Source: Moorena sp. SIO3I8 (GTDB taxonomy: Bacteria; Cyanobacteriota; Cyanobacteriia; Cyanobacteriales; Coleofasciculaceae). Taken from it: a stretch of 40,784 bases of DNA. Position 1 is the stretch's first letter. Each line of letters opens with the position of its first letter. Under the pieces are notes generated by a model. That model was not told the DNA's origin and searched no databases. It saw only the letters and a program-made list of their open reading frames with translations. The stretch is taken from assembly GCF_010692325.1 (NCBI RefSeq), contig NZ_JAAHHW010000058.1, positions 1-40,784 of the forward strand, written 5' to 3'. Shown here one piece after another: positions 3,076-36,667 of the stretch. The position numbers and the translations under genes are program-made.

Positions 3076-3210
3076 TAGGACTTGTGAGGTACAAATATTT
3101 AGGTTTTAGGGAGCAGGGAGTAGGGAGCAGGGAGCAGGGAGCAGGGAGCAGATAAAAGAGAAGAGGCAAGAGCCAATAGTCAAACAATTATGTGTACCTC
3201 ATGAGTCCTA
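3076..3210. mobile_element. Family-1 STRR element (GAGGTACA/TGTACCTC ends)
   Basis: Inverted ends TAGGACTTGTGAGGTACA (3076-3093) and TGTACCTCATGAGTCCTA (3193-3210) pair with two mismatches. They enclose a core with tandem AGGGAGC heptamers (about 3115-3150). It is one of several such units in this window (see 4449, 9164, 15495, 36500). It carries no gene. A 115-aa open frame across it is low-complexity and not credible. Confidence 0.6.
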
Positions 3211-3443
3211 AAAACGTTATAGCAATTCTAAATCATTTGTAAAATCAGCAAAATCACAATTTTGGCGCTTTGTAGGCAGGGTTTACTGCAACCGTTACCC
3301 TTGCATCAATCCATAGGTCTGTTAGTTCCTATGAATCAGGGTAGGCTATTGAATTAAACCCCGCTCGGGTAAGCACTGACTAACATAATTGCGCTTGTGA
3401 GGGGGAAAATCAGGATTGTCCTCTGATTACAGCAATTCAACTG
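3211..3443. other. Gene-free leader before the hydrolase gene
   Basis: About 230 bp without a gene. It contains small potential hairpins (ATCAGGAT near 3410 with ATCCTGAT-like sequence after it) and no clear sigma-70 promoter. It is probably the leader of the gene at 3444. Confidence 0.3.
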
Positions 3444-4325
3444 ATGTTTCCTGATTTTCTGCCCTCCAATACCCAGCAGCTAGTTGAGTCTAGCTCCATT
3501 GTTCTTGCTCAAAGTATCCAGCGTCAAGCTATCTCAACTCCCCTGAGCCCACAGGCCATTGCCACAACTTACGTTAATCAGGGTAAGGGTGGCACGCCGA
3601 TTCTGTTACTCCATGGCTTCGATAGTTCCCTGCTAGAATTACGCCGCTTGCTACCACTGCTGGCTCAGGACAATGAAACCTGGGCAGTGGATTTGTTGGG
3701 TTTTGGGTTTACGGATCGCATGGCAGGGACTCCATTTAGTCCCAATGCGATCGCAACCCATCTCTATTATTTCTGGAAAACCCTGATTAGAACACCAGTC
3801 ATTGTAGTCGGTGCTTCTATGGGGGGTGCAGCGGCGATTGATTTTACCCTCACTTACCCCCAGGTTGTTAAACAGTTAGTATTAATAGATAGCGCTGGCT
3901 GCACCAAGGCTCCCCCGATGGGGAAGTTCTTATTTCCTCCCTTAGGCTACCTAGCGACAGCATTTTTGGCTAATCCCAAGGTAAGGCAAAGTATCAGCAA
4001 AAACGCTTACTATGATAAAGGTTGGGCGTCTGAAGATGCCCGAATTTGTGCTGCATTGCACCTAGAAATGCCTGGTTGGAATCAAGCCTTGATTGCGTTT
4101 ACCAAAAGTGGTGGTTATGGTGATTTTGGGGATAAGCTGGCTCAGATTAGCCAGCCAACTCTAATTTTATGGGGTGACCATGACCAAATTTTAGGCACTG
4201 CTGCTGCTAGCAAGTTTAAGGATGCGATCGCACAATCTCAATTAATCTGGATTAAAGACTGTGGTCATGTGCCTCACTTGGAACAAGCTCAAGTTACTGC
4301 TGAGCATATTTTAGAATTCGCCTAG
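3444..4325 (+). CDS. Alpha/beta hydrolase
   Basis: A 293-aa serine hydrolase of the alpha/beta fold. Visible features in order are the oxyanion-hole motif LLLHGFDSS, the nucleophile elbow GASMGG (VVGASMGGAAAIDF), the acidic residue in LWGDHDQILG and the catalytic His in CGHVPHLEQ near the C-terminus. The cap region lies between the elbow and the acid. There is no signal peptide, so it is cytoplasmic or membrane-associated. The substrate is unknown; the family includes esterases, lipases, epoxide hydrolases and pheophytinase-like enzymes. The ATG at 3444 has a weak Shine-Dalgarno sequence, which is common in cyanobacteria. A second hydrolase of the same fold is at 20997. Confidence 0.9.
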   Translation: MFPDFLPSNTQQLVESSSIVLAQSIQRQAISTPLSPQAIATTYVNQGKGGTPILLLHGFDSSLLELRRLLPLLAQDNETWAVDLLGFGFTDRMAGTPFSPNAIATHLYYFWKTLIRTPVIVVGASMGGAAAIDFTLTYPQVVKQLVLIDSAGCTKAPPMGKFLFPPLGYLATAFLANPKVRQSISKNAYYDKGWASEDARICAALHLEMPGWNQALIAFTKSGGYGDFGDKLAQISQPTLILWGDHDQILGTAAASKFKDAIAQSQLIWIKDCGHVPHLEQAQVTAEHILEFA

Positions 4326-4334
4326 AATTCGGCA

Positions 4335-4438
4335 TATAGCAAAGGGAACAGGGAACAGGGAACAGGGAACAGGGAGCAGGGAGCAGGGAGTAGGGAACAG
4401 GGAACAAACATTCTCTCAATTGATTTAGGATTGCTATA
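4335..4438 (+). mobile_element. Family-2 STRR element (TATAGCAA/TTGCTATA ends)
   Basis: The ends TATAGCAA (4335-4342) and TTGCTATA (4431-4438) are inverted. The core is tandem AGGGAAC/AGGGAGC heptamers, followed by AACATTCTCTCAATTGATTT. Related copies are at 8231, 19205 and 25022, with matching left and right non-repeat segments. Confidence 0.6.
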
Positions 4439-4448
4439 GCTTCAGGAG

Positions 4449-4612
4449 TATAGCGGTTTTTAGCCTAATGAGGTACACAGGATTTTTCCTCTGTTCCCTC
4501 TTCCCCTCCTGGGAGGGGTTAGGGGTGGGTTACTCTTTCCTGTTCCCTGTTCCCTGTTCCCTGTTCCCTAAAACCAGGAACTCTGTACCTCACCAAATTT
4601 AAAACCGCTATA
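4449..4612. mobile_element. Family-1 STRR element
   Basis: The left end TATAGCGGTTTT (4449-4460) and right end AAAACCGCTATA (4601-4612) are perfect inverted repeats. Inside them, TGAGGTACA and TGTACCTCA also pair. The core holds CCCTGTT heptamers. It lies directly after the family-2 element and 8 bp from the fkbM-type gene end, so it may serve as that gene's 3' end. Confidence 0.65.
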
Positions 4613-4620
4613 TAGCATTT

Positions 4621-5352
4621 TCAATTTAGATTTGAAAACGCGATCGCATGTCCAACATACCAGGGAATATTGGGATAAGCTGGTTCCAGGGGCATGATTT
4701 TATATCCTACAGAGTCAATAAACATCTCAATGCTTTGATTCTTCAGTTTAAAGGAGTCTTGATTCCCATCATCTACTTCATAAATCAGGATGGGCTGAAA
4801 TTCTTTAATAGTTTGGATCATCCCCCTTAAAACATTAATTTCTGCTCCTTCCACATCGATTTTGACAACCGTTGGGGGTTTCAAAGTTTTTTGGGAAACC
4901 AAATCATCAATAGATACAAGGTCAACTGTCATTTCACCTCTGAGATCTGGAGGTGTACCCGCTGTCGCTAAAGTAGCTCCTCCTGAATGATGAGCCAGCA
5001 ACAATTCTCCGGTTCCGGTTGATTCAGAAACGGCTTGTGGGAAAACAGTAACATTGGAGAAACTATTAAGCTCCACATTCCGTAGAATAATGTCAGCATT
5101 GTTTGGAACTGGCTCAAACGCATAAACCTGTCCAGATGGCCCAACTAGCTTCGCAGCAATAATAGTAAAAAAGCCAATATTGGCACCGATATCATAGAAG
5201 ATATGATCGTGGTTTAAGCAGCTTGCTAAGGCTTTCTGAAGCGGAAGTTCATAGGTACCACGTGCAAAATCAGGATTAGAACCATCCCCATGGAATTTTA
5301 GTCCTGCACCTACTCCATTGTTAAGGGTTACCTGTTGATTGCTTAAATTCAT
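4621..5352 (-). CDS. FkbM family methyltransferase
   Basis: A 243-aa SAM-dependent methyltransferase of the FkbM type, which methylates sugar or polyketide hydroxyl groups. Visible features are the SAM-binding motif I FYDIGANIGFFT, the acidic motif II VYAFEPVPNNA and the characteristic VVKIDVEGAEINVLRGM block, ending with a typical PILIYEV strand. The start ATG at 5352 lies only 4 bp after the stop of the 704-aa gene. Its AAAGGTG ribosome-binding site is inside the end of that gene, so the two are almost certainly translated from one mRNA. With the glycosyltransferases and deacetylase upstream, an O-methylated glycan is a plausible product, but this is inference. Confidence 0.92.
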   Translation of the reverse strand: MNLSNQQVTLNNGVGAGLKFHGDGSNPDFARGTYELPLQKALASCLNHDHIFYDIGANIGFFTIIAAKLVGPSGQVYAFEPVPNNADIILRNVELNSFSNVTVFPQAVSESTGTGELLLAHHSGGATLATAGTPPDLRGEMTVDLVSIDDLVSQKTLKPPTVVKIDVEGAEINVLRGMIQTIKEFQPILIYEVDDGNQDSFKLKNQSIEMFIDSVGYKIMPLEPAYPNIPWYVGHAIAFSNLN

Positions 5353-5356
5353 TAGT

Positions 5357-7471
5357 CTACACCTTTGCTACAAAATTTTGAAATACACTTCCTGTATCAT
5401 TTCCCCATTCCCAGTTAGCAACAATCCCAACTCGGTTAATTCTAAGACGCACCGCATCTGGATAAACATCTGTAAGGGCACGATACAATACTGGTTCATC
5501 ATTGATGAAGATCATGTAATTCATGCCATCAAAAATCATGCGGAGCCGATGGGAAACACCCCAGTAAATGCGTTTCCCCACATTTGTCCAGACAGCATCA
5601 AATAATTCTTCAAAGCCATTGAGATAGAAAAAGGAAGACATTGAAGCACCACCGTAACAGTCATCTAACCAGTTATTGATAGTGATATAATTGTCAGCAT
5701 CCTGCCAAAAGATAAACCCTCCACGACCTTTTTCTCCCTGTCCTCGTCTAGTTCCAGGGGGAGTAATGTCTACCTGTAAATCCGCTATGTCTGGGTGATC
5801 CCAATCAATGGTGTAGGCAGTGCGACCTGGATTAGGATGTTTAGCATCAGCTTGGACTTTGGCTGTACTATTCCCAGTCAGCTCAATTACCCCTAGCCCA
5901 ATATTCCGATGCCAGACTTTGCTACCACTAGTGGTGGTTTTTCCCATCAAGTCCCCAGCTGCACCAGCAAAATCTTCAGTGATAGCTATTTCGGTACCCT
6001 CTACTACCCAAGGGGAGCCAAGGTCGAGTTCAGAAGGAATAGGGATAGTGCGTGGGTGAGCCTCAAAGGAGCGAAAATACAGACTATGGTTAGAGTTAAT
6101 CCCACCAATGCCAACACCGGTAGCGTTTTCCAGGCGGGTATCTGTAAACCACTTGTTAAAGACTAACTGGCCATTGAGATACAGGCTGAAGGTCTTACCA
6201 TCATCCAATATCTGTAAAGAGTTGATCGCTGTTGGCTGTAAATACCATAGATCGCTAACAGCTAAACATTCCCAGCTATCATGGTCTTGAATCATAAGTT
6301 GACATTTGTCCCCGTCTGCTAGGAAACTCCAGAATTGGTTTTTATCCTGAACACGCCACACAATGCGGACTCCAGTTATCTGAGTAGAGGTTTCAATCAA
6401 CAAATGGATTAGCCCAGAGGGTGTGGGACACTCCAACATAGCGACGCTATCCGGTTGAGTGGCTCTAGCACCATCAGTTGTTAACTCATAAGTTCCTTGA
6501 GAGACACTCCAGAAACCACCCTTGTCCGCTTCAGCACCATCTAGCAAACCATCACCAATCAGGTCATCTGCCACCTGAGCTGTACCGTACCAGGTGGCGA
6601 TGTCTGAAATTTGGGCTACATTAGCGCCATAGATGCGCGTATCGACTTCAAAACCATTCTGTCCCAAAATACTTTGGTATACACCAGCATATACTGTCGG
6701 ATCATCATTGAAAGGATCAATAGCAATGGGACGCATGTTAGGGTAAGCCGCAAGACCATGAGCATTAGGAACAGAAGCAGCATAATACGCAGCTCCCTTT
6801 TCCCGCAGAACCACGATGTAATAAACCTGGAGATTTTGTAAGCCCCTAAATGCTGAGAGCAGATACCCGCCCAAGCGAGTCCACAACTCTCCATTTTCTG
6901 CCCCAGTGGCATGAACAATAAAGGCATTTCCCTCTGCAGTTGGGTCAACAGGAACTTCCCTGGGGAACCAACCCACTGCCAGATTCTCATCAATATTTGG
7001 CAATTTAAATGGTTTGAAATATTTGGAAATTCTGGAGGTACTACGAATCCACCATAGGAGCTTTCGCAGCATCCTGCTTTTTCCCTGACTAGAAGTCCAA
7101 CGCAGAAGCCGTTTAGCCGGTTTATCCGTCTCAGGACCAATCATCCACCGATGGAGTCGTTCTGTTAGGGGCTCAATCCTTTCGGTCTGGGATGTATTAT
7201 GACCATTGCTCAGAAACACTCCAAAGGCGAGTCCATTGGTACGGGTGTAGGGACCATAAGCAATGCCCTGTCTGCCCCACGCAGGTTTTAGCAGAGGCTG
7301 GAGACGTAATGCGCCATTGTCAATCCCAATCAGCTTTTCGACATCTATACCCTTACGAACTGCACCACTGGGAGTTTTAGTACCAATGGTTTTACCTGCA
7401 CAACAGTTGTCTGAGAATGTGTCTGTGAAGGATTTGTTTACTAAATTTTTTGGTGGATTTAATTGTTGCAT
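5357..7471 (-). CDS. Large conserved protein with two LamG/ConA-like beta-sandwich regions
   Basis: A 704-aa protein with no recognisable signal peptide. The N-terminal 150 residues are basic and low in known motifs (GTKTPSGAVRKG, then an RLLRWTSSQGKSRMLRKLLWW stretch). Residues about 165-270 look like a compact alpha/beta domain. Residues about 320-470 and 500-704 resemble laminin-G/concanavalin-type sandwiches, with blocks like KTFSLYLNGQLVFNKWFTDT, GVGIGGINSNHSLYFRSFEA and LRMIFDGMNYMIFINDEPV. Such domains often bind carbohydrate. No catalytic motif is seen. It is followed 4 bp later by the FkbM methyltransferase. I infer a glycan-binding or surface-associated role but cannot assign a function. 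Confidence 0.75.
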   Translation of the reverse strand: MQQLNPPKNLVNKSFTDTFSDNCCAGKTIGTKTPSGAVRKGIDVEKLIGIDNGALRLQPLLKPAWGRQGIAYGPYTRTNGLAFGVFLSNGHNTSQTERIEPLTERLHRWMIGPETDKPAKRLLRWTSSQGKSRMLRKLLWWIRSTSRISKYFKPFKLPNIDENLAVGWFPREVPVDPTAEGNAFIVHATGAENGELWTRLGGYLLSAFRGLQNLQVYYIVVLREKGAAYYAASVPNAHGLAAYPNMRPIAIDPFNDDPTVYAGVYQSILGQNGFEVDTRIYGANVAQISDIATWYGTAQVADDLIGDGLLDGAEADKGGFWSVSQGTYELTTDGARATQPDSVAMLECPTPSGLIHLLIETSTQITGVRIVWRVQDKNQFWSFLADGDKCQLMIQDHDSWECLAVSDLWYLQPTAINSLQILDDGKTFSLYLNGQLVFNKWFTDTRLENATGVGIGGINSNHSLYFRSFEAHPRTIPIPSELDLGSPWVVEGTEIAITEDFAGAAGDLMGKTTTSGSKVWHRNIGLGVIELTGNSTAKVQADAKHPNPGRTAYTIDWDHPDIADLQVDITPPGTRRGQGEKGRGGFIFWQDADNYITINNWLDDCYGGASMSSFFYLNGFEELFDAVWTNVGKRIYWGVSHRLRMIFDGMNYMIFINDEPVLYRALTDVYPDAVRLRINRVGIVANWEWGNDTGSVFQNFVAKV

Positions 7472-7489
7472 GTTGTTGCTTAATGTTTA

Positions 7490-7560
7490 TATAGTGTTTT
7501 AAATTGGGTGAGGTACTTTCATCCTAGGGAGTAGGGAGTAGGGAGTAGGGAGTAGGTAAT
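7490..7560. repeat. Half of a family-1 STRR element
   Basis: The left end is present (TATAGTGTTTTAAATTGGGT followed by GAGGTAC) together with tandem AGGGAGT heptamers. The paired right end is missing. It sits about 20 bp upstream of the ATG of the 704-aa gene. Confidence 0.5.
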
Positions 7561-7667
7561 AGGGAATATATAACAGGTAACAGTAGGAAAGATCCTCGAG
7601 TTTTTTTTGGTGTTATGCTAAATAAGCAATGTCAAACCCTATCGGGTGTATCTCACTTTTGTAAATT

Positions 7668-7771
7668 TTGCGTAGGGTGCGTTAGGGGTGGGATTGCCCT
7701 GATTTTCCGCCTCTTCGTTCCTGGTTGAAATAGCCCACCCCGTAACGCACCACCCGCTCAAACAGCTTTTA
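7668..7771 (-). repeat. About 105-bp repeat with GTGCGTTA/TAACGCAC arms, copy 1
   Basis: Read on the minus strand it runs AAAGCTGTTTGAGC, GGTGCGTTAC, a variable centre, GAGGCGGAAAATC, then CCCCTAACGCACCCTACGCA. The same blocks in the same order and orientation occur at 36370-36463 on the plus strand. The internal GTGCGTTA and TAACGCAC arms are inverted. It is probably a small non-autonomous element. Confidence 0.65.
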
Positions 7772-7947: not shown

Positions 7948-8230
7948 TCTTATTACTTATGATTTCATGATTATCTTGAATGAAGTTGCCAAATTGGCTA
8001 ATTTCTCGCTATTTTTTAGACAATTTATAAATTGTGATAGGTACAAATTCCAGGGTTTTAGGGAGCAGGGACTTCGGAGCAGGTAACAGCGGATCTGGGA
8101 AAGGGGAATAGATAACAAAAATATGTCTTAACCTTTACTTAGAAGGCTATAGACGGCTATATAGTTATTAAATAGGGGTAAAACAGCACAGGCTAAAAAT
8201 CAAGTGCATTGTTATATAAAATTTGAAGTC
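7948..8230. other. Gene-free stretch with broken family-1 repeat
   Basis: No credible gene is present. Around 8038-8100 there is a fragment of a family-1 STRR element (AGGTACAAATTCCAGGGTTT, then AGGGAGC units). It includes the 16-bp module AACAGCGGATCTGGGA at 8085-8100, which recurs at 25033 and 36598. Confidence 0.4.
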
Positions 8231-8314
8231 TATAGCAATCCGTGTAGGAATTGTTATAATTTTTGTTCCCTACTCCCTACTCCCTACTCCCTACTCCCTA
8301 TTCCCTTTGCTATA
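8231..8314 (-). mobile_element. Family-2 STRR element
   Basis: Ends TATAGCAA (8231-8238) and TTGCTATA (8307-8314) are inverted. The strand is opposite to the 4335 copy. The non-repeat arm TCCGTGTAGGAATTGTTATA matches the reverse complement of the arm at 19265-19294. The core is CCCTACT heptamers. It ends 14 bp before the PIG-L gene stop. Confidence 0.6.
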
Positions 8315-8327
8315 GCGTTTATTATAA

Positions 8328-9163: not shown

Positions 9164-9348
9164 TTACAGCATTTTTCAATTGGGTGAGGTACAGATTATT
9201 TGGTTTTAGGGAACAGGGAACAGGGAACAGGGAACAGGGAACAGGGAACAGGGAAAAAATCCTCTGTACCTCAGGTGCGACCCGCGCCTTGAGCGAATTT
9301 AATTCTTAATGGGTCAAGCGCACCTAATAGTTATGAAAAACGCTGTAA
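9164..9348. mobile_element. Family-1 STRR element carrying a nested hairpin element
   Basis: Ends TTACAGCATTTTTCA (9164-9178) and TGAAAAACGCTGTAA (9334-9348) pair 14 of 15. Inside are GAGGTACAG, seven AGGGAAC-type heptamers, and CTGTACCTCA. A second repeat (9273-9325) sits between the inner and outer right-hand arms. The left end stops 2 bp before the PIG-L ATG. Confidence 0.65.
9273..9325. repeat. GGTGCG hairpin element, copy A
   Basis: AGGTGCGACCCGC at the left and AAGCGCACCT at the right form terminal inverted arms around GCGAATTTAATTCTTAATGG. One of six copies in the window (others near 19430, 21993, 25058, 27621 and 39357). Confidence 0.65.
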
Positions 9349-9403: not shown

Positions 9404-12400
9404 TCAAAGAATAGTCTTGTACTGCTTGAGTAAATCATCAACAACTTTCTCGAAAGAAAATAGTTCAACCGCTCGCTGATGTCCAGCTTGTCCCATGGAT
9501 GTTCTAAGTTCTTGGTCAGAAAGAAGTTGCAAGATGGCGTCTGCTAAAGCATCAGCATTACTCCGTTCAACCAGCAGACCTGTCTTACCATCTTCTACAA
9601 TCTCGGGAAAAGCACCAGCTTGGGTAGCAATAACCGGAAGACCTGCAACCATAGCTTCGACAATTGGCATCCCAAATGCTTCGTGACATACTGACGGAAA
9701 TACAAAAATGTCTGCCTGCTGATAATAATTGACTAACTTAGATTGAGGAAGGGAGCCAGTGAAGGATACTTGGCTGGCTAGATCAGCACCAAAGTGATCA
9801 TTCAATTCGGACAGGTATCGTCTCACGTAACCTGTCCAACTTTCATCACCGTAGAATGATGCTAACTCTGCCACTTTGGAGTCATCACTTAATCCCACAA
9901 GATAGTCGTAGGGTAATGCACCTACAGGACCAACGAGATCAAGTTTGGTTTGAGGGCAGCGCTCGAGCACTTTTTTAAACGCCTCTAATAAGACATGGGA
10001 TCCTTTTTCTGGAGATACTCTACCCACATAGAGTAATCGTTTAGCAGGATTTTTGGTGCTGCCATTTTCCTGATTATGGCTGACATATAAATTCATGAAG
10101 CGATCAAGGTTTACCCCATTAAAAACCGGCTGACAGCGCTCGGCAAATTTAGGAAAACGCTCGCGAATCCCTTCTGTGATATACTTACTAGTACCAATAA
10201 CTAAATCTACCTTACTAAGCCGCTTTTCTAGAATTTTGTGGTCCAGTTGGGTCAACCACTCACAATGCATGTGCAGGGCAATTTTTATTCCTGGGTTCAA
10301 GGCTCGTATCACTGGAATAAACTGAGATAAGTTGTGAATGTGAACAACATCACATTGCTGTTTTATCAAGTCATTTGCTACTTGTAAAATATATGCGAGG
10401 TAATAGAGTTGGGAGCAAAATATAGGACGTTTTTGATTCTGGAATCCTGGAATTTTTTCTAGATAGTTTAGCAGTTTTTTATCCCGACCTATGGGAATAT
10501 ATCGATAGTCTACTCCGTCATGACTTGCCGTATTAAAGCGTTCTCCTGGTGTATAGACAATAACATCACCATCTTGAACTAAAAGACGCACGAATTCATA
10601 GGTCAAAATTCCGATAGAATCCATCGGGTTTGGAAACGATGTCATCACAAAGGGTTGACAGACAAATGCTATCTTTAATCGTTTCTTAGAATCTGCTCCG
10701 TTTAATTGATGATTTAATTTGTTGTTTAATTTGTTTTGCTCTCGGTCAATCCTAGTTAATTTATTATGCACTAAAGTGGTGTAGACTTCGTTGTTACTGG
10801 GATTGAGTTTGAGGACATTGTTATAGGATGCGATCGCATCATCTAATTTGCCTTGTTCTTGGAGAGCAACCCCTAAGGTATAATGACTGTTTACCAACTC
10901 TGGCTGTATTGCGATCGCATTCCGGTAGTAAGCCACCGCAGTCTTCACATCGCCCCCTATTTTCCGACTAACGCCCAAATCGTGATTTAAGGCAGCGTAG
11001 TAGGCGTGTTTGTCTTGGGAAAGCTGCCCTTGAGCGTGGAGTGCATTGCCCAAATTCACATCAGCTTCAGTACAGGTAGGCTGAATCTCCAACGCTTTTT
11101 GATAGGATGCGATCGCATCGTCCCAATTACCTTGTTGTTGCAGAGCATACCCAAGGTTGTTGTGAACCGCTATTAAGTTCGGCTGTATTGTTAAGACTCG
11201 TTGGTAACACTCCACCGACTCAGACAACTGACCTTGACCTTGGCACAAATTACCTAAACTAAACCAACCCTTAACAGAATTCGGCTCCGCTTCCACAGTA
11301 GCTCTGAACAACTTCTCGGCCATCTCATACTGACCTGTTTGCTGTGCCAGCACCCCTAAGCCATATAAAGCTTCCGGATGATTAGGGTGTTGTTCCAAAA
11401 TCTTATAGTAAACCTGTACAGCCTTGTTTAAGCGATTGGCTTGACGATGTTGAACAGCAAGTTGTAGTGCTTCAGAAACAGTTTCCATCGCAAATTGTCT
11501 TGGTTTATGGACTACATTTAATAGAAAATCTTCTAATGCTCTTACCGGTTTCAAGTCACCATATAACTTATGCTTATTTTCAGCAACTTGATCAGATATG
11601 TATTGACGATATTGAGCATCTTGACCCAACCGTACCGCAATTTTCACATAATCCTCTTTACTCTTAGCAATTGTCTCTTCCAGACCCATCATTTTTAGAA
11701 TTGCTATCGTATGCCGACCACGCATCAAATCTCCTGGGAATGTCACAATCGGAATATTATGGGTAATCGATTCTAAACTAGAGTTACATCCAGACCAACC
11801 AATGCTATCCAAGAATACATCCGCTATGGCTGAGGTTCCAGCAAACCTCCTGTTATTCATGAACGGTAAAAATATGCAGTAGTCTGTATAATCGAGGCCA
11901 AATTTATTAAAAGCATCCCTTAAACGCTGGGTAAATATCTCAGTAACCTGGTCACTTTTAACATATTTAAGAAATACAAACTTACATCGACAATCTAACT
12001 CCTTAGCAATTCTAGTAAAAACATCATCATAGTGAGGTAAATACTTATATAAAGATTGGCAGCACCAGAACATAATCTCATCATCCTCTAAGCCTATGTC
12101 CTTTTTACTAATTGCTTCCGGTGTAATTTCCAAAGGGGTGTAATGGATAGAGAGATTCGGTAATCTAACTAACCTCTCACTATAATGCTCTTGAGCATTT
12201 TCTGCTTCCATTAAATCACTACTCAAGTAATAGTCAATCGTCGGCATTCCACTAGTATCGGGATGTCCCCAAGATGTCATTTGAATCGGAGCCAGTCTTA
12301 AACAACCCAACTTAACTGTAGTGGGGGACATCCCGAATTCCGGAAAAATCAGGATGTGTAATTTATCTTTTGTAATTACCTCACACCATTCTTCCATAGT

Positions 12401-13798
12401 CAAAGAACCTTGAACAAATTTGACAAATGATTTCGCGGCTATTGCTGTTTCCTTATCCTGTTTTAACCCGGTGTGATAACCAAATAGTTCAAAATTCGAT
12501 CTATCTATATTTTCTACCCAGCCCTTAATCGGTATTTTCCAATTAGAATGATCCCAAAAGAATTCCGAAATAACCCCAATCCGAACTTTTTCATGAGGTG
12601 CTAAATTTGGTAGAGGAATTTTCTGGCTCCACCGGGGATAGCACTTCCACATGATCTGGCAAATCATTGCTCCATAAATTTGCTGTAACTCTCGGTTATT
12701 TAACCCTTGATAGGCCAGATAAAAAGGCTGAAACGCTCCCACCGCCTTAGCAGCACTTAGCAGTTCCATTGGACTTAGCTCTGTATCGCTCTGTGTATAG
12801 CTATCCGCTAATTTTTTCAGACTAGCTTGGTAATTATTTCGCGTTACCTTGATTTCATCAACACTTGAATAAATGATCGGAATCTGACACACGCACATGG
12901 CCAGTTTAGCTTCAGCCAAGTTAGGGTTAATACTTAATGCTTGCTGGTAAGACTGTAGGGCTTCTTCTAGCTTGCACTGTTCGTGGAGTGTATTTCCTAA
13001 ATTGTTATAAACCTCAGCAAAATCAGGTTTCAGCCTAATCGCTTCCTGATAGGACTGTAGCGCTTCCTCTAACTTGCCCTGTTTTTGGAGTATTGTTCCC
13101 AAATTGTTATGAGCGTCAGCATAGTCAGGTTTAAGCCTAATTGCTTCTTGGTAAGACTCTCTTGCAGCATCTAACTTGCCCTGTTTTTGGAATAGAGTCC
13201 CCAAATTGTTATGAGCCTGAAAACAATCTGCTTTAAGCTTAATCGCTTCCTGGTAGGACTCTTGTGCCGCATCTAACTTCCCCTGTACCTGTAGTACATT
13301 TCCCAGATTACAATAAGCCTGAGCATAGTCAGGTTTAACCCTAATCGCTTCTTGGTAGCACCGTACCGCTTCCGATAACTTACCCTGACTATAAAGTAAA
13401 TTTCCTAAATTGTTATGAGCCAGAGCATAGTCAGGTTTAACCCTAATCGCTTCTTGGTAAGACTGTACCGCTTTGTCTAACTCTCCTTGTGCCCAGAAGA
13501 TATTTCCCAAATTGTTATGAACTTCAGCAAAGTCAGGTTTTAGGGTTAAACCTTGTTGGTACAACCCTACCGCTTCCTCTAGCTTATTTTTTTCCTCAAA
13601 TATACTTGCCAGATTAGCAATGGCTATCACGTTATAGGGCTTCGATAAAAGCTTTTCCTCACCCTGATTATCCCCCTGAATCTGTATTACCTGTCTGTAG
13701 ATAGATTCAGCCTGATCTAATTTACCTAATTGATGATTTTGAGCAGCTGTATTGATTAGAGATTCAAGGTTTGATTCTAACAATTGGTTGGTAGTCAT
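9404..13798 (-). CDS. Bifunctional TPR protein with SPINDLY/OGT-like and GT4 glycosyltransferase domains
   Basis: A 1464-aa cytoplasmic protein with four modules. Residues about 10-305 are eight TPRs (HNNLGNLLYSQGKLSEAVRC pattern). Residues about 310-765 resemble the catalytic region of O-GlcNAc transferase/SPINDLY-type enzymes (GT41): YHTGLKQDKE, APIQMTSWGHPDTSGMPTID, FLDSIGWSGCNSSLESI and DLMRGRHTIAILKMMG. Residues about 780-1025 are a second TPR set. Residues about 1045-1464 are a GT-B, GT4 transferase with VHIHNLSQF, LLYVGRVSPEKGSHVLLEAF and the EX7E motif in HEAFGMPIVEAMVAGLPVIA. It probably adds sugars to proteins or a glycan. It starts at the ATG 13798 and leads the minus-strand cluster. 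Fusion of two transferase types in one chain is the notable point. Confidence 0.88.
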   Translation of the reverse strand: MTTNQLLESNLESLINTAAQNHQLGKLDQAESIYRQVIQIQGDNQGEEKLLSKPYNVIAIANLASIFEEKNKLEEAVGLYQQGLTLKPDFAEVHNNLGNIFWAQGELDKAVQSYQEAIRVKPDYALAHNNLGNLLYSQGKLSEAVRCYQEAIRVKPDYAQAYCNLGNVLQVQGKLDAAQESYQEAIKLKADCFQAHNNLGTLFQKQGKLDAARESYQEAIRLKPDYADAHNNLGTILQKQGKLEEALQSYQEAIRLKPDFAEVYNNLGNTLHEQCKLEEALQSYQQALSINPNLAEAKLAMCVCQIPIIYSSVDEIKVTRNNYQASLKKLADSYTQSDTELSPMELLSAAKAVGAFQPFYLAYQGLNNRELQQIYGAMICQIMWKCYPRWSQKIPLPNLAPHEKVRIGVISEFFWDHSNWKIPIKGWVENIDRSNFELFGYHTGLKQDKETAIAAKSFVKFVQGSLTMEEWCEVITKDKLHILIFPEFGMSPTTVKLGCLRLAPIQMTSWGHPDTSGMPTIDYYLSSDLMEAENAQEHYSERLVRLPNLSIHYTPLEITPEAISKKDIGLEDDEIMFWCCQSLYKYLPHYDDVFTRIAKELDCRCKFVFLKYVKSDQVTEIFTQRLRDAFNKFGLDYTDYCIFLPFMNNRRFAGTSAIADVFLDSIGWSGCNSSLESITHNIPIVTFPGDLMRGRHTIAILKMMGLEETIAKSKEDYVKIAVRLGQDAQYRQYISDQVAENKHKLYGDLKPVRALEDFLLNVVHKPRQFAMETVSEALQLAVQHRQANRLNKAVQVYYKILEQHPNHPEALYGLGVLAQQTGQYEMAEKLFRATVEAEPNSVKGWFSLGNLCQGQGQLSESVECYQRVLTIQPNLIAVHNNLGYALQQQGNWDDAIASYQKALEIQPTCTEADVNLGNALHAQGQLSQDKHAYYAALNHDLGVSRKIGGDVKTAVAYYRNAIAIQPELVNSHYTLGVALQEQGKLDDAIASYNNVLKLNPSNNEVYTTLVHNKLTRIDREQNKLNNKLNHQLNGADSKKRLKIAFVCQPFVMTSFPNPMDSIGILTYEFVRLLVQDGDVIVYTPGERFNTASHDGVDYRYIPIGRDKKLLNYLEKIPGFQNQKRPIFCSQLYYLAYILQVANDLIKQQCDVVHIHNLSQFIPVIRALNPGIKIALHMHCEWLTQLDHKILEKRLSKVDLVIGTSKYITEGIRERFPKFAERCQPVFNGVNLDRFMNLYVSHNQENGSTKNPAKRLLYVGRVSPEKGSHVLLEAFKKVLERCPQTKLDLVGPVGALPYDYLVGLSDDSKVAELASFYGDESWTGYVRRYLSELNDHFGADLASQVSFTGSLPQSKLVNYYQQADIFVFPSVCHEAFGMPIVEAMVAGLPVIATQAGAFPEIVEDGKTGLLVERSNADALADAILQLLSDQELRTSMGQAGHQRAVELFSFEKVVDDLLKQYKTIL
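12951..13560 (-). repeat. 102-bp tandem DNA repeats encoding TPRs
   Basis: Six consecutive units of about 102 bp (34 codons) recur with phrases such as CCCAAATTGTTATGAGC and CTAATCGCTTCTTGGTA. They encode near-identical TPRs inside the dual glycosyltransferase. Identity at DNA level implies recent unit duplication or gene conversion. Confidence 0.75.
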
Positions 13799-15494: not shown

Positions 15495-15661
15495 TATAGC
15501 GTTCATAGGACTCATGAGGTACACATTATTTTTTACCTCTTCCCTCTTCCCTTCCCCTCCTGGGAGCAGTAGGGGTGGGTTCCTCTTCCCTGCTCCCTGT
15601 TCCCTGTTCCCTGTTCCCTAAAAAAGCTAATTTTGTACTTAATTAAGTACAAAATTGCTAT
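15495..15661. mobile_element. Family-1 STRR element with a 28-bp palindrome
   Basis: The left end is TATAGCGTTCATAGGACTCA then GAGGTACACA; the right end is AAATTGCTATA. The core has CCCTGTT heptamers. Where other copies have a single TGTACCTCA arm, this one has a perfect palindrome at 15629-15656 (half-site AATTTTGTACTTAA). Confidence 0.6.
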
Positions 15662-15761
15662 AGTTGTTAAGGTAATATAATTGTCCGAACAGCAGTAGGG
15701 AAGCTGATCGCAAAAACGATTAGCCCGAAGGGCTACGCTACGCGATCGCAAAAATATAATT

Positions 15762-17258
15762 ATGATCGACACTTATGATATTGTTGTGGTTGGTGCTGGT
15801 CCAGTAGGATTAGCCACTGCCATTGGCTTACAGCAGCGTGGTATATCTAATTTTCTAGTCCTTGATCAAACTCGTGCCTTTCGTCGAGTTGGTCAGGTTA
15901 TCGATCTTCTGCCTAATGGATTAAAAGCGCTTAACCACATAGCGCCTTCTGCTTACGAAGCCGTTAAAAAAACGGGTATGGAGTTTTTACAGAAAGCCCA
16001 AGCCAATCAAAATCCCGAAACAACCATCAGCAAACAAAAACTACCTAAGACTTCTCCTCAATGGGTTGTCAAAAATTTTAAGGGAGAGCAAATTCATTCT
16101 TTTCCTATTAGCTATGAGGATTGGTTCAAGGATTATGGAGAGGGTCGAGTCTCAATTTCTTGGTACGATTTACAGACCACTCTCAGAAACCAACTTCCCG
16201 TTGAACAGGTTAAAGCGAATCATCGTTGTATCAATGTTGTTGATGAAGGAAACACCGGATATGTTCGGCTAGATTTTGTTTCTGATGCAGCCATAGAAGC
16301 AAATCCCTATGCTCATTGGTCAAACAGACAGAACGATCAGGATACAGTCTCCTTCAATTCAGAGCATAGTGGCCAACAATTTCAAAAAAAATCAATCCGG
16401 GCTAGGCTAGTTGTTGCTGCAGATGGTATCAACTCTACCATTCGTCGGATTGTTTATAACGATAGTCCCTACAGTGGTTTAGCCAGACCTGACTATTCCG
16501 GATTTGCCGCCCTATTCTGTATGAAAATCACGGATATTCCTCCAGAGCTAAGCACAGAGCTTGAAAACAAATTTTTTCAGCAGGAACGGATTCTCACCAT
16601 CACTAATGATCAAATCTCAGAGGATTCGGCTTCTATGGAATCCCCACGGATGCTCCTATTTCGCCGTCCCAATGCTCAGTTTGGGTATTTGATCCATCTT
16701 CCTTTAAACCAGGAAGAGTTGACAGAAAAATCTGGAAGTGCCTTGATTGCTTTAGCATTGCGAGAGTTGGAAAACGCTAATTTTCCCAAAGCTCTCACAC
16801 AATTAGTGGCTTTATCTCCTCCTGTCAAAATCAAATCCCGTCCCTATTACATTCACCGTGTAGAAACTCTATCTCCCTGGAGTTCAGGTAGAGTTATCTT
16901 AGTGGGTGATGCCGCCCATGGGATGCCTCCTTTCATGGCTCAAGGGGCTAATCAAGGATTGGAAGATGCTCTGGTTGTAGCTACCATGATCGCTAATATT
17001 GTACAGAAAAATAATCTTGATAATATCCAAGCAATCGCCAATGCTTGCCTTAACTACGAATCTCTTCGTCGTCCATTAATGGAGAAGATTCAGCAAGCAA
17101 CATTGAACCGAATTCCCTACAGTAACAAACAAGCATGGCATGACTACCAACAATTGGTATATTGTCGTAATTTTGAGCAATTGCTGGAGCAATGTAACCA
17201 TTTAGCAGTCAGCAGTCAGCAGTCAGCAGTCAGCAGTCAGACAAAGGCTGATAGCTGA
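15762..17258 (+). CDS. FAD-dependent monooxygenase
   Basis: A 498-aa flavoprotein of the PHBH/UbiH fold (aromatic hydroxylase type). The N-terminal Rossmann motif is DIVVVGAGPVGLATAIGL. The mid motif is VVAADGINSTIRR, and the FAD-ribityl motif is RVILVGDAAHGMPPFMAQGANQ near residue 380. Substrate is unknown; 3-hydroxybenzoate, kynurenine and salicylate hydroxylases share the fold. The ATG at 15762 follows a small TAGCCC/GGGCTA hairpin. The last 14 residues (AVSSQQSAVSSQ and on) are translated from a CAGCAGT heptamer tract, so the natural C-terminus was probably replaced by repeat DNA. No partner genes are adjacent. It is convergent with larE. Confidence 0.88.
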   Translation: MIDTYDIVVVGAGPVGLATAIGLQQRGISNFLVLDQTRAFRRVGQVIDLLPNGLKALNHIAPSAYEAVKKTGMEFLQKAQANQNPETTISKQKLPKTSPQWVVKNFKGEQIHSFPISYEDWFKDYGEGRVSISWYDLQTTLRNQLPVEQVKANHRCINVVDEGNTGYVRLDFVSDAAIEANPYAHWSNRQNDQDTVSFNSEHSGQQFQKKSIRARLVVAADGINSTIRRIVYNDSPYSGLARPDYSGFAALFCMKITDIPPELSTELENKFFQQERILTITNDQISEDSASMESPRMLLFRRPNAQFGYLIHLPLNQEELTEKSGSALIALALRELENANFPKALTQLVALSPPVKIKSRPYYIHRVETLSPWSSGRVILVGDAAHGMPPFMAQGANQGLEDALVVATMIANIVQKNNLDNIQAIANACLNYESLRRPLMEKIQQATLNRIPYSNKQAWHDYQQLVYCRNFEQLLEQCNHLAVSSQQSAVSSQTKADS

Positions 17259-17272
17259 TAGCTGATAGCTGA
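17203..17272. repeat. STRR tracts CAGCAGT and TAGCTGA
   Basis: About five CAGCAGT-type heptamers encode the C-terminus of the monooxygenase. They are followed at about 17249-17272 by three TAGCTGA heptamers. Then comes ACGCGTGCGCGTAGCGCTAA, a second repeat motif shared with 23361-23416. Confidence 0.8.
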
Positions 17273-17339
17273 ACGCGCACGCGTGCGCGTAGCGCTAATC
17301 GCTGTTCGCTAATAACTGAATGCTTACAAAAAGCCAAAC

Positions 17340-18261: not shown

Positions 18262-18313
18262 GGAAGAGGGAACAGGGAACAGGGAACAGGGAACAGGGAA
18301 CAGGGAACAGGGA
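18262..18313. repeat. STRR tract, heptamer AGGGAAC
   Basis: Seven near-perfect copies of AGGGAAC between larE and the ABC permease. No TIR of family 1 or 2 is visible around this tract. Confidence 0.85.
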
Positions 18314-18359
18314 AAAAAAATTATGCTCAGGGCTGATAGCTGATAGGTCTTGGCATAAC

Positions 18360-19204: not shown

Positions 19205-19302
19205 TATACCAAAGGGAAAAGGGAACAGGGAACAGGGAACAGGGAACAGAGAGTAGGGAAAAGGGAACAAAAATTCTCACAATTCCTACACGGATTGGTA
19301 TA
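19205..19302 (+). mobile_element. Family-2 STRR element with covarying ends
   Basis: The ends are TATACCAA and TTGGTATA, against TATAGCAA/TTGCTATA in the other copies. The same base has changed in both arms so pairing is preserved. The core is AGGGAAC heptamers; the right arm ACAATTCCTACACGGA matches the 8231 copy. Confidence 0.6.
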
Positions 19303-19476: not shown

Positions 19477-19553
19477 CTTACTATTTAGACTTTTAAACTA
19501 TCATCAAGTTAGACTCTCAATAGCAATCATTAATAATTACTAATCACCAATTA

Positions 19554-19706
19554 TAGCTTTTTTTATACTAATGAGGTACACATAATTTTTGCCCTGCTAC
19601 CTCTTCTCTATTCCCGATTCCCGATTCCCGATTCCCGATTCCCGATTCCCGATTCCCTGTTCCCTGTTCCCTGTTCCCTGTTCCCTGTTCCCTGTTCCCT
19701 GTTCCC
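19554..19706. repeat. Family-1 left end with CCCGATT and CCCTGTT arrays
   Basis: TATAGC then TAATGAGGTACACATAA starts the unit. Next come about six CCCGATT heptamers, then about seven CCCTGTT heptamers. No TGTACCTC right end is present. The array ends 9 bp before the CPBP gene stop. Confidence 0.65.
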
Positions 19707-19714
19707 TTATATCA

Positions 19715-25021: not shown

Positions 25022-25154
25022 CTAGCAAAGGGAACAGCGGATCTGGGAGTAGGGAGCGGTGCGACCCAAGGGCGATTTACTCGCCCTTGGAGGCGCGCAC
25101 CGAGGGAGTAGGGAGTAGGGAACTTTTGATCAAAAATTTCCACAATTCATTATA
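25022..25154 (+). mobile_element. Family-2 STRR element with nested hairpin D
   Basis: Starts CTAGCAAAGGGAACAG and ends AAAATTTCCACAATTCATTA then TAGG, paralleling the 4335 and 19205 copies. The core AGGGAGT heptamers are interrupted by a GGTGCG hairpin (25058-25101), and by the module AACAGCGGATCTGGGA at 25033. Confidence 0.55.
25058..25101. repeat. GGTGCG hairpin element, copy D
   Basis: GGTGCGACC and GGCGCGCACC arms flank a different centre: CCAAGGGCGA pairs with TCGCCCTTGG around TTTAC. The sequence of the inner stem differs from the other copies but pairing is retained. Confidence 0.6.
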
Positions 25155-25430
25155 GGTACCCTATCCGTTGACTACTGACAGGGTTAGTCTAAGAGCTGGT
25201 TTAGTATAGCCTTAAATCTTATTGATTTTGGTTGGTGGATGAAGGTAACTTCACTGAATCTTTAATTAACCAAATAAAACCTTAAAGAAATGAATAAATT
25301 ATTCCAAGACAGGAAACTTATACCTAACCTATAGGTTAATTAATCATAAAATAACTATAATCATATATTTATTCCCTGAATAGTAGCTATTAAAGGTTAA
25401 TTAAAATCCTAAAAATAAGATATAAAAATA

Positions 25431-32981: not shown

Positions 32982-33003
32982 TCCAATCAGAGTTTTTTTT
33001 GAT

Positions 33004-33027
33004 TATAATATGAATGAATTTTCATAT
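33004..33027 (+). promoter_or_regulatory. Candidate arsR promoter with overlapping operator
   Basis: A consensus -10 TATAAT (33004-33009) overlaps an inverted repeat ATATGAA-6-TTCATAT (33008-33027). This layout fits autorepression by an ArsR/SmtB protein. The 7-6-7 spacing resembles ArsR-type sites, but no direct consensus match was checked. A clear -35 was not found. Confidence 0.5.
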
Positions 33028-33061
33028 CAATGATAATTCAACTGCTGAGAATAGCTGAATC

Positions 33062-33367: not shown

Positions 33368-33664
33368 CAAAGTGCTGAGTAATTGCTCAGTTTTAAGTTG
33401 TCAGTTATATAGCGTATGTATCTCGGTTGTGAACACACGTATTGCAGGAAAAGGCTTGCATACAATAGGCATGCTAGCAATAGGGGCAAGAAATCTCACT
33501 TTTATTGTCAAATCAAAAAAGTCCTTTTAGGTTTACATCTCAAATACAAACCTTATATCAAGTCTGGCGGATTTGAAATTATTGAGCAATCCAGCAATTA
33601 TAACTGAGCAATTATAACTGAGCACTCTCATTATTTTATAGATAAGATGACTGACTGATGATTG
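33368..33664. other. Gene-free leader before pstS
   Basis: About 300 bp. A 14-bp perfect tandem repeat (GCAATTATAACTGA at 33594-33607 and 33608-33621) lies 44 bp before the pstS ATG. It is not spaced like the known Pho box (8-bp repeats 11 bp apart). Two short frames here have no family pattern and are rejected. Confidence 0.4.
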
Positions 33665-34519: not shown

Positions 34520-35354
34520 TACTCTCCTAATCTTGACCCTACAAGGCTGTGCTGTGGTGGCTGGTGCTATCGTGGTGCTGATTGTTGTGTTCCTAATCAC
34601 GGAAGCCTTGCCAGTATTGGGACAAGTAGGATTACTCCCTTTTTTTACCGATCCATCCTGGCATCCTGCCGAGACTCTGTACAACTTCACCCCTATGCTT
34701 TGGGGTACCCTATTCGTCACGGCTGGCGCGATGGTAGTGGCCACACCCCTGGGAATTCTATCTGCAGTCTTTTGTCAGTATTACGCGCCTCCACCCATTG
34801 CTGGACTTTATCGACGGCTAATTGAATTGTTGGCAGGGATGCCCTCAGTTGTTTACGGCTTCTGGGGTTTGGTGGAGCTAGTTCCCCTAATTGGACGCTT
34901 CCAGCCACCAGGAGCCAGTCTCCTAGCTGGAATTGCGATTCTGACCCTGATGATTTTGCCAACTATTGCTCTGACCGCAGACGCTAGCTTTGCGAAAGTC
35001 CCCCCAGAATACCTACAGGGAGCAGCAGCCCTGGGACTATCCCGCTGGGCAACAGTCCAAGGTGTTGTGTTTCCGGCTGCTAAGTCGGGGCTGTTTACTG
35101 GCTTGATTTTAGGAACAGGACGGGCGATTGGAGAAACCATGGCCGTGCTGATGGTGTGTGGCAATGTGGTGCAAACTCCCAAAAGCCTATTTGAGCCGAT
35201 GCGAACTCTTACTGCCAATATTGCCTTGGAAATGGCTTACGCTATTGGCAATCACCGCTCAGCACTTTTTGTCAGTGGCTTGCTGCTGATGGCAATAATT
35301 TTGGTACTGGTAGCAATTGCAGAAATCATCAGCAAGGAAGGAATTTATGAGTAA
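34449..35354 (+). CDS. pstC: Phosphate ABC transporter permease PstC
   Basis: One of the two membrane subunits of the Pst transporter. About 301 aa with six hydrophobic helices. The EAA-type cytoplasmic loop is LQGAAALGLSRWATVQGVVF, followed by GRAIGETMAVLMV, as expected of PstC. The start is uncertain: a TTG at 34449 lies 71 bp inside pstS, and another TTG at 34500 overlaps pstS by 20 bp. The downstream TTG is a good alternative because the membrane part begins soon after it. No ATG precedes the first helix. pstA follows after 124 bp containing repeats. Confidence 0.88.
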   Translation: MSFRDRKRYKTLLKSKTLSPSRSDTLLILTLQGCAVVAGAIVVLIVVFLITEALPVLGQVGLLPFFTDPSWHPAETLYNFTPMLWGTLFVTAGAMVVATPLGILSAVFCQYYAPPPIAGLYRRLIELLAGMPSVVYGFWGLVELVPLIGRFQPPGASLLAGIAILTLMILPTIALTADASFAKVPPEYLQGAAALGLSRWATVQGVVFPAAKSGLFTGLILGTGRAIGETMAVLMVCGNVVQTPKSLFEPMRTLTANIALEMAYAIGNHRSALFVSGLLLMAIILVLVAIAEIISKEGIYE

Positions 35355-35394
35355 TAACTTATATCAAGTCTGGTTGAATACCCATAATTAAGGA

Positions 35395-35452
35395 GAGGGT
35401 GGGGAGATGGGGAGATAGGGAGATAGGGACATAGGGACATAGGGAGATATTT
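35395..35452. repeat. STRR, heptamer AGGGAGA/AGGGACA, in the pstC-pstA gap
   Basis: GGGGAGATGGGGAGATAGGG and similar heptamers, then AGGGACAT copies, lie between pstC and pstA. They separate genes that are usually adjacent or overlapping. Confidence 0.8.
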
Positions 35453-35478
35453 ATTAAGGGTAATTATCCTGACATGAT

Positions 35479-36372
35479 ATGAAAACGAAGCCACAACCGA
35501 CAACCGACAACTTCCAACCTGCAACCGACAACTTCCAACCTGCAATCGACAACTTCCAAGTTTCAACGGTGATGATTTGGGCGATCGCACTGTTCGTAAC
35601 TGCTGTATTCCTCTGGATTTTGAGTGATATCGTCTGGCACGGTGTCGGACAAATTAACTGGGAATTCCTGACTACTGCACCAAAGAATGCTGGACGGGAA
35701 GGAGGGATTGCTCCAATTCTGGTTTCCACTCTCCTAATTTTAGGTGTATGTATGACCGTTTCTGTTCCGATTGGAGTAGGGACAGCAATACTGCTAGCTG
35801 AGTTCACAGATACTAAGAGTATTTTCGGGCGTCTGGTTCGTCGTAGCTTAGATGTGCTGGCAGGGGTACCGTCGATTGTGTTTGGACTATTTGGCAATGC
35901 CTTTTTCTGCAAAACCCTAGGGCTAGGCTTTTCAATTTTGTCTGGGGGGTTGACATTAGCCTGTATGGTGTTGCCAATCCTAATTCGATCAACAGAGGAA
36001 GGGTTTCGCGCCGTTAGTGATGATTATCGGCTATCTGCCACTGCCCTTGGTTTATCCCGCACTACCACTCTCTGGAATTTGCTGTTACCAGCCGCAGCAC
36101 CGGGACTAGTGGTGGGATTAGTGTTAGGGATAGGGCGAGCGATCGCTGAGACCGCAGCACTGATCTTTACTAGTGGTTATGTGGATCGGATGCCAGAGTC
36201 TTTGCTGGATTCTGGGCGATCGCTGTCGATTCATATTTTTGATTTGTCGATGAATGTAACAGGGGGAAATGCTAATGCTTATGCCTCAGCTTTAGTGTTG
36301 CTGGTCTTGTTGTTGCTGATTAATGGTACAGCAGCATTGATGGCTGAGTATTGGTTGGGTGCATCTCATTAA
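35479..36372 (+). CDS. pstA: Phosphate ABC transporter permease PstA
   Basis: The second Pst membrane subunit, 297 aa. The core begins near MIWAIALFVTAVFLWILSDI, continues with GVPSIVFGLFGNAFF, and contains the EAA-like loop YRLSATALGLSRTTTLWNLL and GRAIAETAALIFTSGY. The N-terminal 30 residues are unusual: DNFQPAT, DNFQPAI and DNFQVST, encoded by a 21-bp repeat (three times 7). Typical PstA has no such tail, so it looks like repeat DNA recruited into the gene. ATG 35479 is the first start. The true start could be further inside. The stop TAA is the first bases of the repeat at 36370-36463. Confidence 0.9.
   Translation: MKTKPQPTTDNFQPATDNFQPAIDNFQVSTVMIWAIALFVTAVFLWILSDIVWHGVGQINWEFLTTAPKNAGREGGIAPILVSTLLILGVCMTVSVPIGVGTAILLAEFTDTKSIFGRLVRRSLDVLAGVPSIVFGLFGNAFFCKTLGLGFSILSGGLTLACMVLPILIRSTEEGFRAVSDDYRLSATALGLSRTTTLWNLLLPAAAPGLVVGLVLGIGRAIAETAALIFTSGYVDRMPESLLDSGRSLSIHIFDLSMNVTGGNANAYASALVLLVLLLLINGTAALMAEYWLGASH
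35506..35567 (+). repeat. 21-bp tandem repeat in the 5' end of pstA
   Basis: Three units of GACAACTTCCAACCTGCAAC-type sequence start at 35506, 35527 and 35548 and encode the N-terminal DNFQPxx repeats. 21 bp is three heptamers, in keeping with the other STRR tracts. Confidence 0.8.
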
Positions 36373-36463
36373 AGCTGTTTGAGCCAGTGGTGCGTTACAA
36401 GCAGCAACCTAAGGCTGGTTACGAGGCGGAAAATCTCCAGTCCCCCTAACGCACCCTACGCAA
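36370..36463 (+). repeat. About 95-bp repeat with GTGCGTTA/TAACGCAC arms, copy 2
   Basis: AAAGCTGTTTGAGC, GGTGCGTTAC, a variable centre, GAGGCGGAAAATC and CCCCTAACGCACCCTACGCA follow in the same order as in copy 1 (7668-7771, minus strand). It starts at the pstA stop codon. Confidence 0.65.
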
Positions 36464-36499
36464 CTAATTCCGAATTACCAATTTCCAATTACTAATTAC

Positions 36500-36667
36500 T
36501 ATAGGGTTTTTCATAGCTATGAGGTAGACATTTTTTTCGATTCCCGATTCCCGATTCCCGATTCCCGATTCCCGATTCCCGATTCCCGATTCCCTGTTCC
36601 CAGATCCGCTGTTCCCTGTTCCCTAAAATCCACGACGAAAGTACCTCACCAAATTGAAAACCGCTAG
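36500..36667. mobile_element. Family-1 STRR element between pstA and pstB
   Basis: Left TATAGGGTTTTTCATAGCTA then GAGGTAGACA, right AGTACCTCACC and AAAACCGCTAGA. The core has CCCGATT then CCCTGTT heptamers, plus the reversed module TCCCAGATCCGCTGTT at 36598. The element ends 22 bp before the pstB ATG. Confidence 0.65.

Follow-up and report, generated by a model that had tools for sequence, protein, structure and literature searches.

Heptamer repeats as cores of inverted-end, MITE-like elements in Moorena and other Cyanobacteriales

The stretch analysed here, referred to throughout as the window, comprises 40,784 bp of Moorena sp. SIO3I8 (NZ_JAAHHW010000058.1; contig C465 of a 7.99-Mb Moorena draft genome in 510 contigs) and contains runs of G-rich heptamers, known in cyanobacteria as short tandemly repeated repetitive (STRR) sequences, many of them enclosed by inverted ends (Table 1). 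The relatives used for comparison were the Moorena genomes G001, G002 and G003 together with Moorena sp. SIO3H5. A first-pass annotation of the window had distinguished two families of such elements. All five of its family 1 elements (3076, 4449, 9164, 15495 and 36500) proved to have both ends, with 3076 falling within a left end and 15495 having a degenerate inner box on its right, and its half copies at 7490 and 19554 are real, the second starting at 19552. Among the four family 2 places, both ends were recovered at 4335, 8231 and 19205, and the copy at 25022 is decayed with one recognisable end. AGGGAAC-, CCCTACT- and CCCGATT-type units are present as named, and a decayed 315-bp insertion at 8012-8326 had been missed.

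The end of family 1 is 29 bp long and inverted, consisting of an outer box (TATAGCGGTTTT), eight unspecified bases and an inner box (TGAGGTACA). With up to three mismatches, TATAGCGGTTTT-N8-TGAGGTACA occurred 417 times genome-wide, compared with once for a reversed control. Within the window, TATAGCGGTTTT (at most two mismatches) was found 15 times against 3.7 expected and GAGGTACA (at most one mismatch) 40 times against 25.5 expected, with 0 of 100 shuffles as high in either case. An iterated weight matrix recovered 197 ends, compared with three in reversed sequence, from 61 stretches totalling 1,092,663 bases (1.09 Mb); 20 of these stretches were chosen for listed ends and five more for earlier hits, and densities in the full set are therefore biased. 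The ends formed 59 inward pairs spanning 94-399 bp, that is, terminal inverted repeats around a short non-coding core, as expected of a miniature inverted-repeat transposable element (MITE). At L059:16939-17144 and L064:1734-1863 (loci outside the window are cited by stretch and position), we noticed that the family 1 ends are symmetric (TCTAGC...GCTAGA).

By a simple rule, the core was a heptamer run in 37 of the 59 pairs. A self-match run of at least 14 appeared at lag 7 in 31/59 cores and at lags 4, 5, 6, 8, 9, 10 and 11 in none. The usual layout is end, CACAGGATTTTTTCCC, [TGTTCCC]n, TAAAACCCAGAAATTT, end, the conserved arms being CACAGGATTTTTTCCC on the left and CCCTAAAACCCAGAAATTT on the right. 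Units in the arrays of families 1 and 2, for which GGGA itself was the selection criterion, were GGGAGTA (75), GGGAACA (62), GGGAATC (52), GGGAGCA (46), GGGAGTC (11), GGGAATA (6) and GGGAGGA (2). Family 1 length modulo 7 was mildly uneven (12/37 at residue 3, p = 0.06), a weaker test than the comparison of orthologues given below. Twelve further cores were classed as 'other', several of them visibly irregular heptamers; one (L021:13751) fits with a group of non-heptamer cores. A non-heptamer core, CAACCTCAAAGTCCCCCTTATTAAGGGGGATTTAGGGGGATC, with family 1 ends and a length of 109 bp was seen at L021:13751, L055:1970, L059:12036, L082:15951, L090:7309 and L093:8143. Furthermore, a short piece, AGCGGATCTGGGAAC, recurs within heptamer runs at window 25030-25050, in G003 at window ~7500 (where it is itself repeated) and at L066:1867.

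A candidate source of transposase lies between the same ends. A DDE-domain piece taken from inside one end pair gave 19 matches, some overlapping, in four genomes of the genus. At five of these loci (L118, L119, L120, L122 and L125), an IS630-type transposase stands between family 1 end pairs 1029-1058 bp apart (~1.03 kb). The query piece matched PF13358 (IS630/DDE_3) above the model cut-off (E = 3e-28). It also matched NF033545, the IS630 model (E = 2.1e-21), as did the last 136 codons of the longer L119 frame (E = 1.7e-24), both below the 100-bit cut-off and both being partial pieces only. In L119, a frame of 136 codons and one of 203 overlap, a layout shared with IS630 members that are read by frameshift; the frames are shorter or more broken in the other four copies. 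The variable spacer of the end differs among copies of this insertion sequence (IS), and the subtype at L119 (AGGACTCATGAGG / ACGACTTGTGAGG) recurs at window 3065 as AGGACTCATGAGG / AGGACTTGTGAGG. The five IS630 copies would thus represent the autonomous partner, with the same ends, that is expected of a MITE family.

Empty sites in close strains, which the first-pass annotation had proposed to look for, do exist. We joined the flanks without the element, searched the genus and read the matching places for 16 family 1 sites (the first in list order from 28 pairs whose flanks were nearly unique) and for four sites of family 2. In the window, the element at 9165-9347 is absent from G003, the two bases TA being common to both flanks, and G001, G002 and SIO3H5 are likewise uninterrupted. 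Eight of the 16 family 1 sites lack the element in at least one sister species. The junction was a base-exact single TA at three of them, namely L022:16640 (G001, G003), L071:5826 (G002, G003) and L084:5101 (G001), the first two of which carry heptamer cores. A duplicated target is typical of MITEs, and duplication of TA in particular is typical of IS630/Tc1-mariner elements. L014:9355, L076:16757, L077:189, L078:5627 and L083:11179 were seen only filled, and the matches listed for L012:12825, L062:12824 and L076:17194 gave no information.

Orthologous copies show that the core changes after insertion, usually in steps of its own unit. In 19 comparisons of heptamer elements present in at least two species, one pair was of equal length, 11 differed by a multiple of 7 and seven differed otherwise. 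Multiples of 7 thus account for 11 of the 18 length changes, for which a chance of 1/7 gives 6e-6, a rough figure as the species are not independent. Specifically, the element at L078:5627 measures 124 bp in its own genome, 117 bp in G002 and 103 bp in G003, and family 2 copies measure 105, 112 and 98 bp at L071:6191 and 104 vs 111 bp (G002) at window 4335. Three comparisons with one unaligned flank (L063:13994 in G002, L078:5627 in G001 and L071:6191 in G001) were omitted, and the non-heptamer-core sites L014:9355 and L059:12036 were excluded. The unit itself can be replaced with arms and flanks kept: L077:189 holds GATTCCC in its own genome and in G003, TGCTCCC plus GATTCCC in G001, and TATTGCC/TATTCCC in G002. 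At the site of window 7490, G002, G003 and SIO3H5 have family 1 elements with other cores. The expectation of the same ends around different heptamer cores held within the genome, between orthologous copies and between genera.

How many STRRs belong to such elements was assessed in a less biased sample of 35 stretches that had not been picked for containing ends (554,791 bases, 555 kb), seven of which nonetheless hold an end from the genome-wide list. This sample contained 77 GGGA-type arrays, mainly non-coding as is usual for STRRs (12/77 mostly inside an open reading frame (ORF) of at least 150 codons). An inward family 1 end lay within 150 bp of 24 arrays, compared with 5.6% of random non-coding places (about fivefold), and both ends were present at seven, compared with 0.3% in the null, bearing out the earlier expectation that STRRs are flanked by these ends above chance. 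When the seven stretches with previously listed ends were dropped, 12/49 arrays still had an end (null 5.5%). Family 2 arms or ends accompanied 11/77 arrays, the same loose test matching 78 of 6200 random non-coding places, and the family 1 right arm alone accompanied six. Among arrays without ends, window included, a family 1 arm stood on the expected side in 8/46 and on the wrong side in 0/46. For many heptamer repeats of cyanobacteria, though not for all, transposition offers a means of spread.

Taken together, family 1 is very probably a set of non-autonomous MITEs of IS630/Tc1-mariner type carrying heptamer cores that later change in place, and family 2 a second heptamer-core element. Family 1 elements, mostly ~90-310 bp long, would be bound at outer box TATAGCGGTTTT and inner box TGAGGTACA by an IS630-family transposase acting in trans, presumably supplied by the longer copies with the same ends, and they insert at TA with duplication of the TA. 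In most copies the GGGA-type run moves with the element between the conserved arms. Once in place, the run changes in length by whole 7-bp units, probably through replication slippage, and its unit sequence can be replaced; decay of the ends may then leave some STRRs looking free-standing. Family 2, whose ends are short, would be a further element, probably likewise inserting at TA.

Several observations weigh against this reading. Ten of the 59 end pairs hold a different, non-heptamer core around CCCCCTTATTAAGGGGG, and the copy at L084:5101 likewise has no heptamers. At 14 of the 19 transposase loci no end pair ~1.03 kb apart is present; a pair ~1.49 kb apart was found at L134/L135, and the remaining loci have one end, other pairs or none. 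Five of the eight absences (L023:5610, L023:13441, L059:12036, L059:16939 and L063:13994) are less than base-exact, the empty site retaining 8 bases at L023:5610 and TATA at L059:12036, which has a non-heptamer core. At L059:16939 the ends are TC...GA and the empty site in G003 is TC, which a simple TA duplication does not explain. Seven of the 18 changes in length do not correspond to whole 7-bp steps (L076:16757 in three relatives, L083:11179 in G002, and family 2 copies L012:4534 in two and L080:19252). Finally, 36 of the 77 arrays have no recognisable end or arm; the notion that every STRR is part of an element was consequently rejected, and the earlier description of STRRs as element cores and not isolated slippage tracts, which holds for many, was too strong.

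The heptamer core might instead have been selected for a role in the host, such as G-quadruplex formation, transcript ending or binding of a repeat protein, with the transposon being secondary. Four or more GGG tracts spaced 7 bp apart occur in 33/59 cores, and the two bases after GGGA are a purine and then a pyrimidine in 252/254 units inside elements and 283/297 outside. Moreover, just five of the 59 elements lie mostly inside an ORF of at least 150 codons (stop to stop), leaving 54 that do not. However, 26/59 cores have no four such tracts, and the non-heptamer class uses the same ends, which makes a host role as the primary cause unlikely.

Had the STRRs come first, inverted-end elements would have inserted beside or into existing heptamer tracts, or tracts would have entered MITEs later. 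Arrays of the same units without ends, which make up nearly half of the sample, and a family 2 copy (L075:5817) lying within an AGCTGAT array are in keeping with such a history. However, insertion into STRRs was rejected because the empty sites hold no heptamers: at L071:5826, L022:16640 and window 9165, ends and core are missing together and one TA remains, which refutes the priority of the STRR for such elements. Arm-to-core junctions also recur across genera, and some elements have just one or two units (94 bp at L076:16757; 86 bp at L226 and L227), so that this order of events appears highly improbable. Least credible are REP/BIME-like (repetitive extragenic palindrome/bacterial interspersed mosaic element) or hairpin elements moved by a transposase of RAYT or IS200/IS605 type, for although inverted ends would pair in RNA and the five inexact sites lack an exact TA junction, TA is duplicated elsewhere and IS630 transposases are bounded by the same 29-bp ends. 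From the wording 'MITE-like or hairpin units' in the first-pass annotation, we retain the former; 'hairpin' is needless, since the junctions at TA and the match to IS630 ends indicate movement by DNA transposition.

The MITE-like arrangement of family 1 extends well beyond Moorena. Its ends (at most two mismatches) were found in 30 of 37 genomes, own included, and three GGGA heptamers within 35 bp after the inner box in 12/37 genomes of six genera (controls, 0). In genomes sampled evenly from the order, the inner-box and heptamer pattern occurred in 57/388 genomes and 31/149 genera, compared with six matches in four genomes for the reversed control; long arrays are counted repeatedly among pattern matches, and many of the 57 genomes have few, with 30 having five or more. 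Loci of genus g3 have both ends, an AAAACC arm and the units CATTCCC, AATTCCC and TATTCCC, and family 1 members also occur in families f2, f5, f10 and f32. Among the first 18 regions read from other genera, 14 contained an end pair, three of these (L225, L228 and L232) without a clear heptamer core. In a second 18, both ends were recognised in eight and not in ten at the score used; one pattern match (L238, genome G184) showed no family 1 end on reading.

The other MITE-like family, family 2, hardly occurs outside Moorena: its arms number 37, 60, 39 and 25 in four Moorena genomes, compared with one in the other 33 genomes. The copies at L012:4534 and L080:19252 are absent from G002 and G001, respectively, neither site being base-exact, and L071:6191 was seen only filled. 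In the window, the copy at 8231 lies in the larger insertion 8012-8326. The GCTGATA/AGCTGAT array around L075:5817 is consistent with insertion at TA.

Heptamer STRRs, which serve to fingerprint cyanobacteria, have reportedly been known since an account by Mazel in 1990, and to our knowledge their origin and spread have so far gone unexplained. A 2008 account by Elhai is said to describe very small mobile repeats in filamentous cyanobacteria, some near heptamer tracts. The Nezha MITE of Anabaena and Nostoc is also cyanobacterial, and is not known to have a heptamer core. By title or opening lines, no description of cyanobacterial heptamer-core MITEs was found in the literature searched, which did not cover most subscription journals, and the link between STRRs and a transposon thus appears new to that literature, with Elhai's account, likely relevant, lying outside it.

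Tandem-repeat MITEs as such are already known from Porphyromonas gingivalis (BrickBuilt and MITEPgRS/MITE464; PMC4596501). In the accessible text of that paper, BrickBuilt, like family 1, is a MITE with a leader, a tandem-repeat core and a tail, its ends match a resident IS, and it is always intergenic; it differs in its 23 or 41 nt unit, IS5-type ends, 19 copies in one strain and inconsistent target duplications (PMC4596501). In contrast, family 1 has a 7-bp unit, IS630-type ends, a TA target, hundreds of ends per genome, a range of many genera and units that are replaced between relatives. It works like BrickBuilt yet is not a member, having neither the 23-nt unit nor the IS5-type ends. In Nostoc and Xanthomonas, the GGGNATC/GGGGA(C/T)T heptamers resemble the present arrays in being G-rich, mostly non-coding and possibly G-quadruplex-forming; the available text of that study describes them as generally not associated with insertion sequences or transposable elements (PMC4692102), whereas here 35/77 arrays are accompanied by an end or arm from one of two inverted-end families. 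The MITEs of Anabaena sp. 90 (77-541 bp, 132/147 intergenic) are cyanobacterial too, and no IS sharing their ends was identified by the authors; as far as the accessible text goes, no heptamer core is mentioned (PMC3542288).

A wider claim would make IS630-type transposition a principal source and disperser of GGGA-type STRRs across Cyanobacteriales, the G-rich core being a hypervariable module kept for helping the element (e.g., through end spacing or a G-quadruplex during transposition), and free STRRs being mostly relics. We consider this possible and still rather doubtful. The narrower result gives a specific way in which a large part of the heptamer STRRs would be spread, in an arrangement that recurs with different units in the sampled genera listed above. 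Empty sites in sister species place the insertions in time, and in such elements one can trace how a bacterial minisatellite grows, shrinks and is replaced.

Table 1. Inverted-end elements and heptamer repeats (window positions unless a stretch or genome is named).
Feature	Position	Strand	Description
Family 1 element	3065..3221	-	core (GGGAGCA)n, 157 bp; end subtype AGGACTCATGAGG / AGGACTTGTGAGG; weight-matrix end pair; spacers match IS630 copy L119
Family 1 element	4449..4612	+	core (CCCTGTT)n with CTCCTGGGAGGGG insert, 164 bp; in G002; not in G001, G003, SIO3H5
Family 1 element	9165..9347	-	core (GGGAACA)n, 183 bp counting both TA; sister species have the empty site with exact TA
Family 1 element	15495..15662	+	core (CCCTGTT)n; degenerate right inner box; also in G001
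Family 1 element	36500..36668	+	core (CCCGATT)n then (CCCTGTT)n; not in G001, sole relative compared there
Decayed family 1 element	7490..7670	-	left end 7490-7517, core 7525-7565, weak right box near 7647
Family 1 half copy	19552..19707	+	left end, mixed CCCGATT/CCCTGTT core, without right end
Decayed family 1-like insertion	8012..8326	.	inner box GATAGGTACA, 315 bp, surrounds family 2 copy 8231; in G001, not SIO3H5
Family 2 element	4335..4438	-	TATAGCAATCC arm, (AGGGAAC)n, TATAGCAA end; 111 bp in G002, one heptamer more
Family 2 element	8231..8314	+	core (CCCTACT)n
Family 2 element	19205..19302	-	ends TATACC/GGTATA; also in G001
Decayed family 2 copy	25022..25160	-	one recognisable end; interrupted by GC-rich foreign insert
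STRR	1178..1211	+	family 1 right-arm relic CCCTAAAATCCAG, without inverted end
STRR	1714..1753	+	AAAATC arm relic, without inverted end
Free STRR (GGGAACA)n	18262..18314	-	no recognisable ends
Third family	2101-2191
Third family	17204-17330		right half
Third family	37540-37761
Third family	L022:17503-17629
Third family	L084:2909-3056
Third family	L088:16181-16357
Third family	L073:10601-10829
GATGCA...TGCATC element	orthologues of 14414 (G001) and 14504 (G003)		inside STRR in SIO3H5

Heptamers of AGCTGAT type were considered as family 1 cores and rejected, 0/13 lying near family 1 ends. A third inverted-end family, GTAAGCATTCAGC...GCTGAATGCTTAC (GTAAGC...GCTTAC), holds AGCTGAT/TCAGC-type heptamers, several AGCTGAT-type arrays among them, with 95 ends compared with 10 in the control and seven pairs in the 1.09 Mb. 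At the place orthologous to window ~9400, G001 and SIO3H5 contain an inserted copy, possibly with a 5-bp duplication, and G003 has none. A palindromic GATGCA...TGCATC element, whose inserts measure 93 to 229 bp, occurs in one Moorena species, and another lacks it cleanly.

Elsewhere in the window, one pattern-based scan covering close relatives only gave three matches to the protein encoded at 5357-7471, with 95-97% identity and all from Moorena (SIO3H5, M. bouillonii PNG and SS36440bin_2). A 102-bp tandem repeat occupies 12935-13540 within a long ORF (9404-13798), and two ORFs at 37928-40784 match identical places in G001, where about five copies stand in a row.

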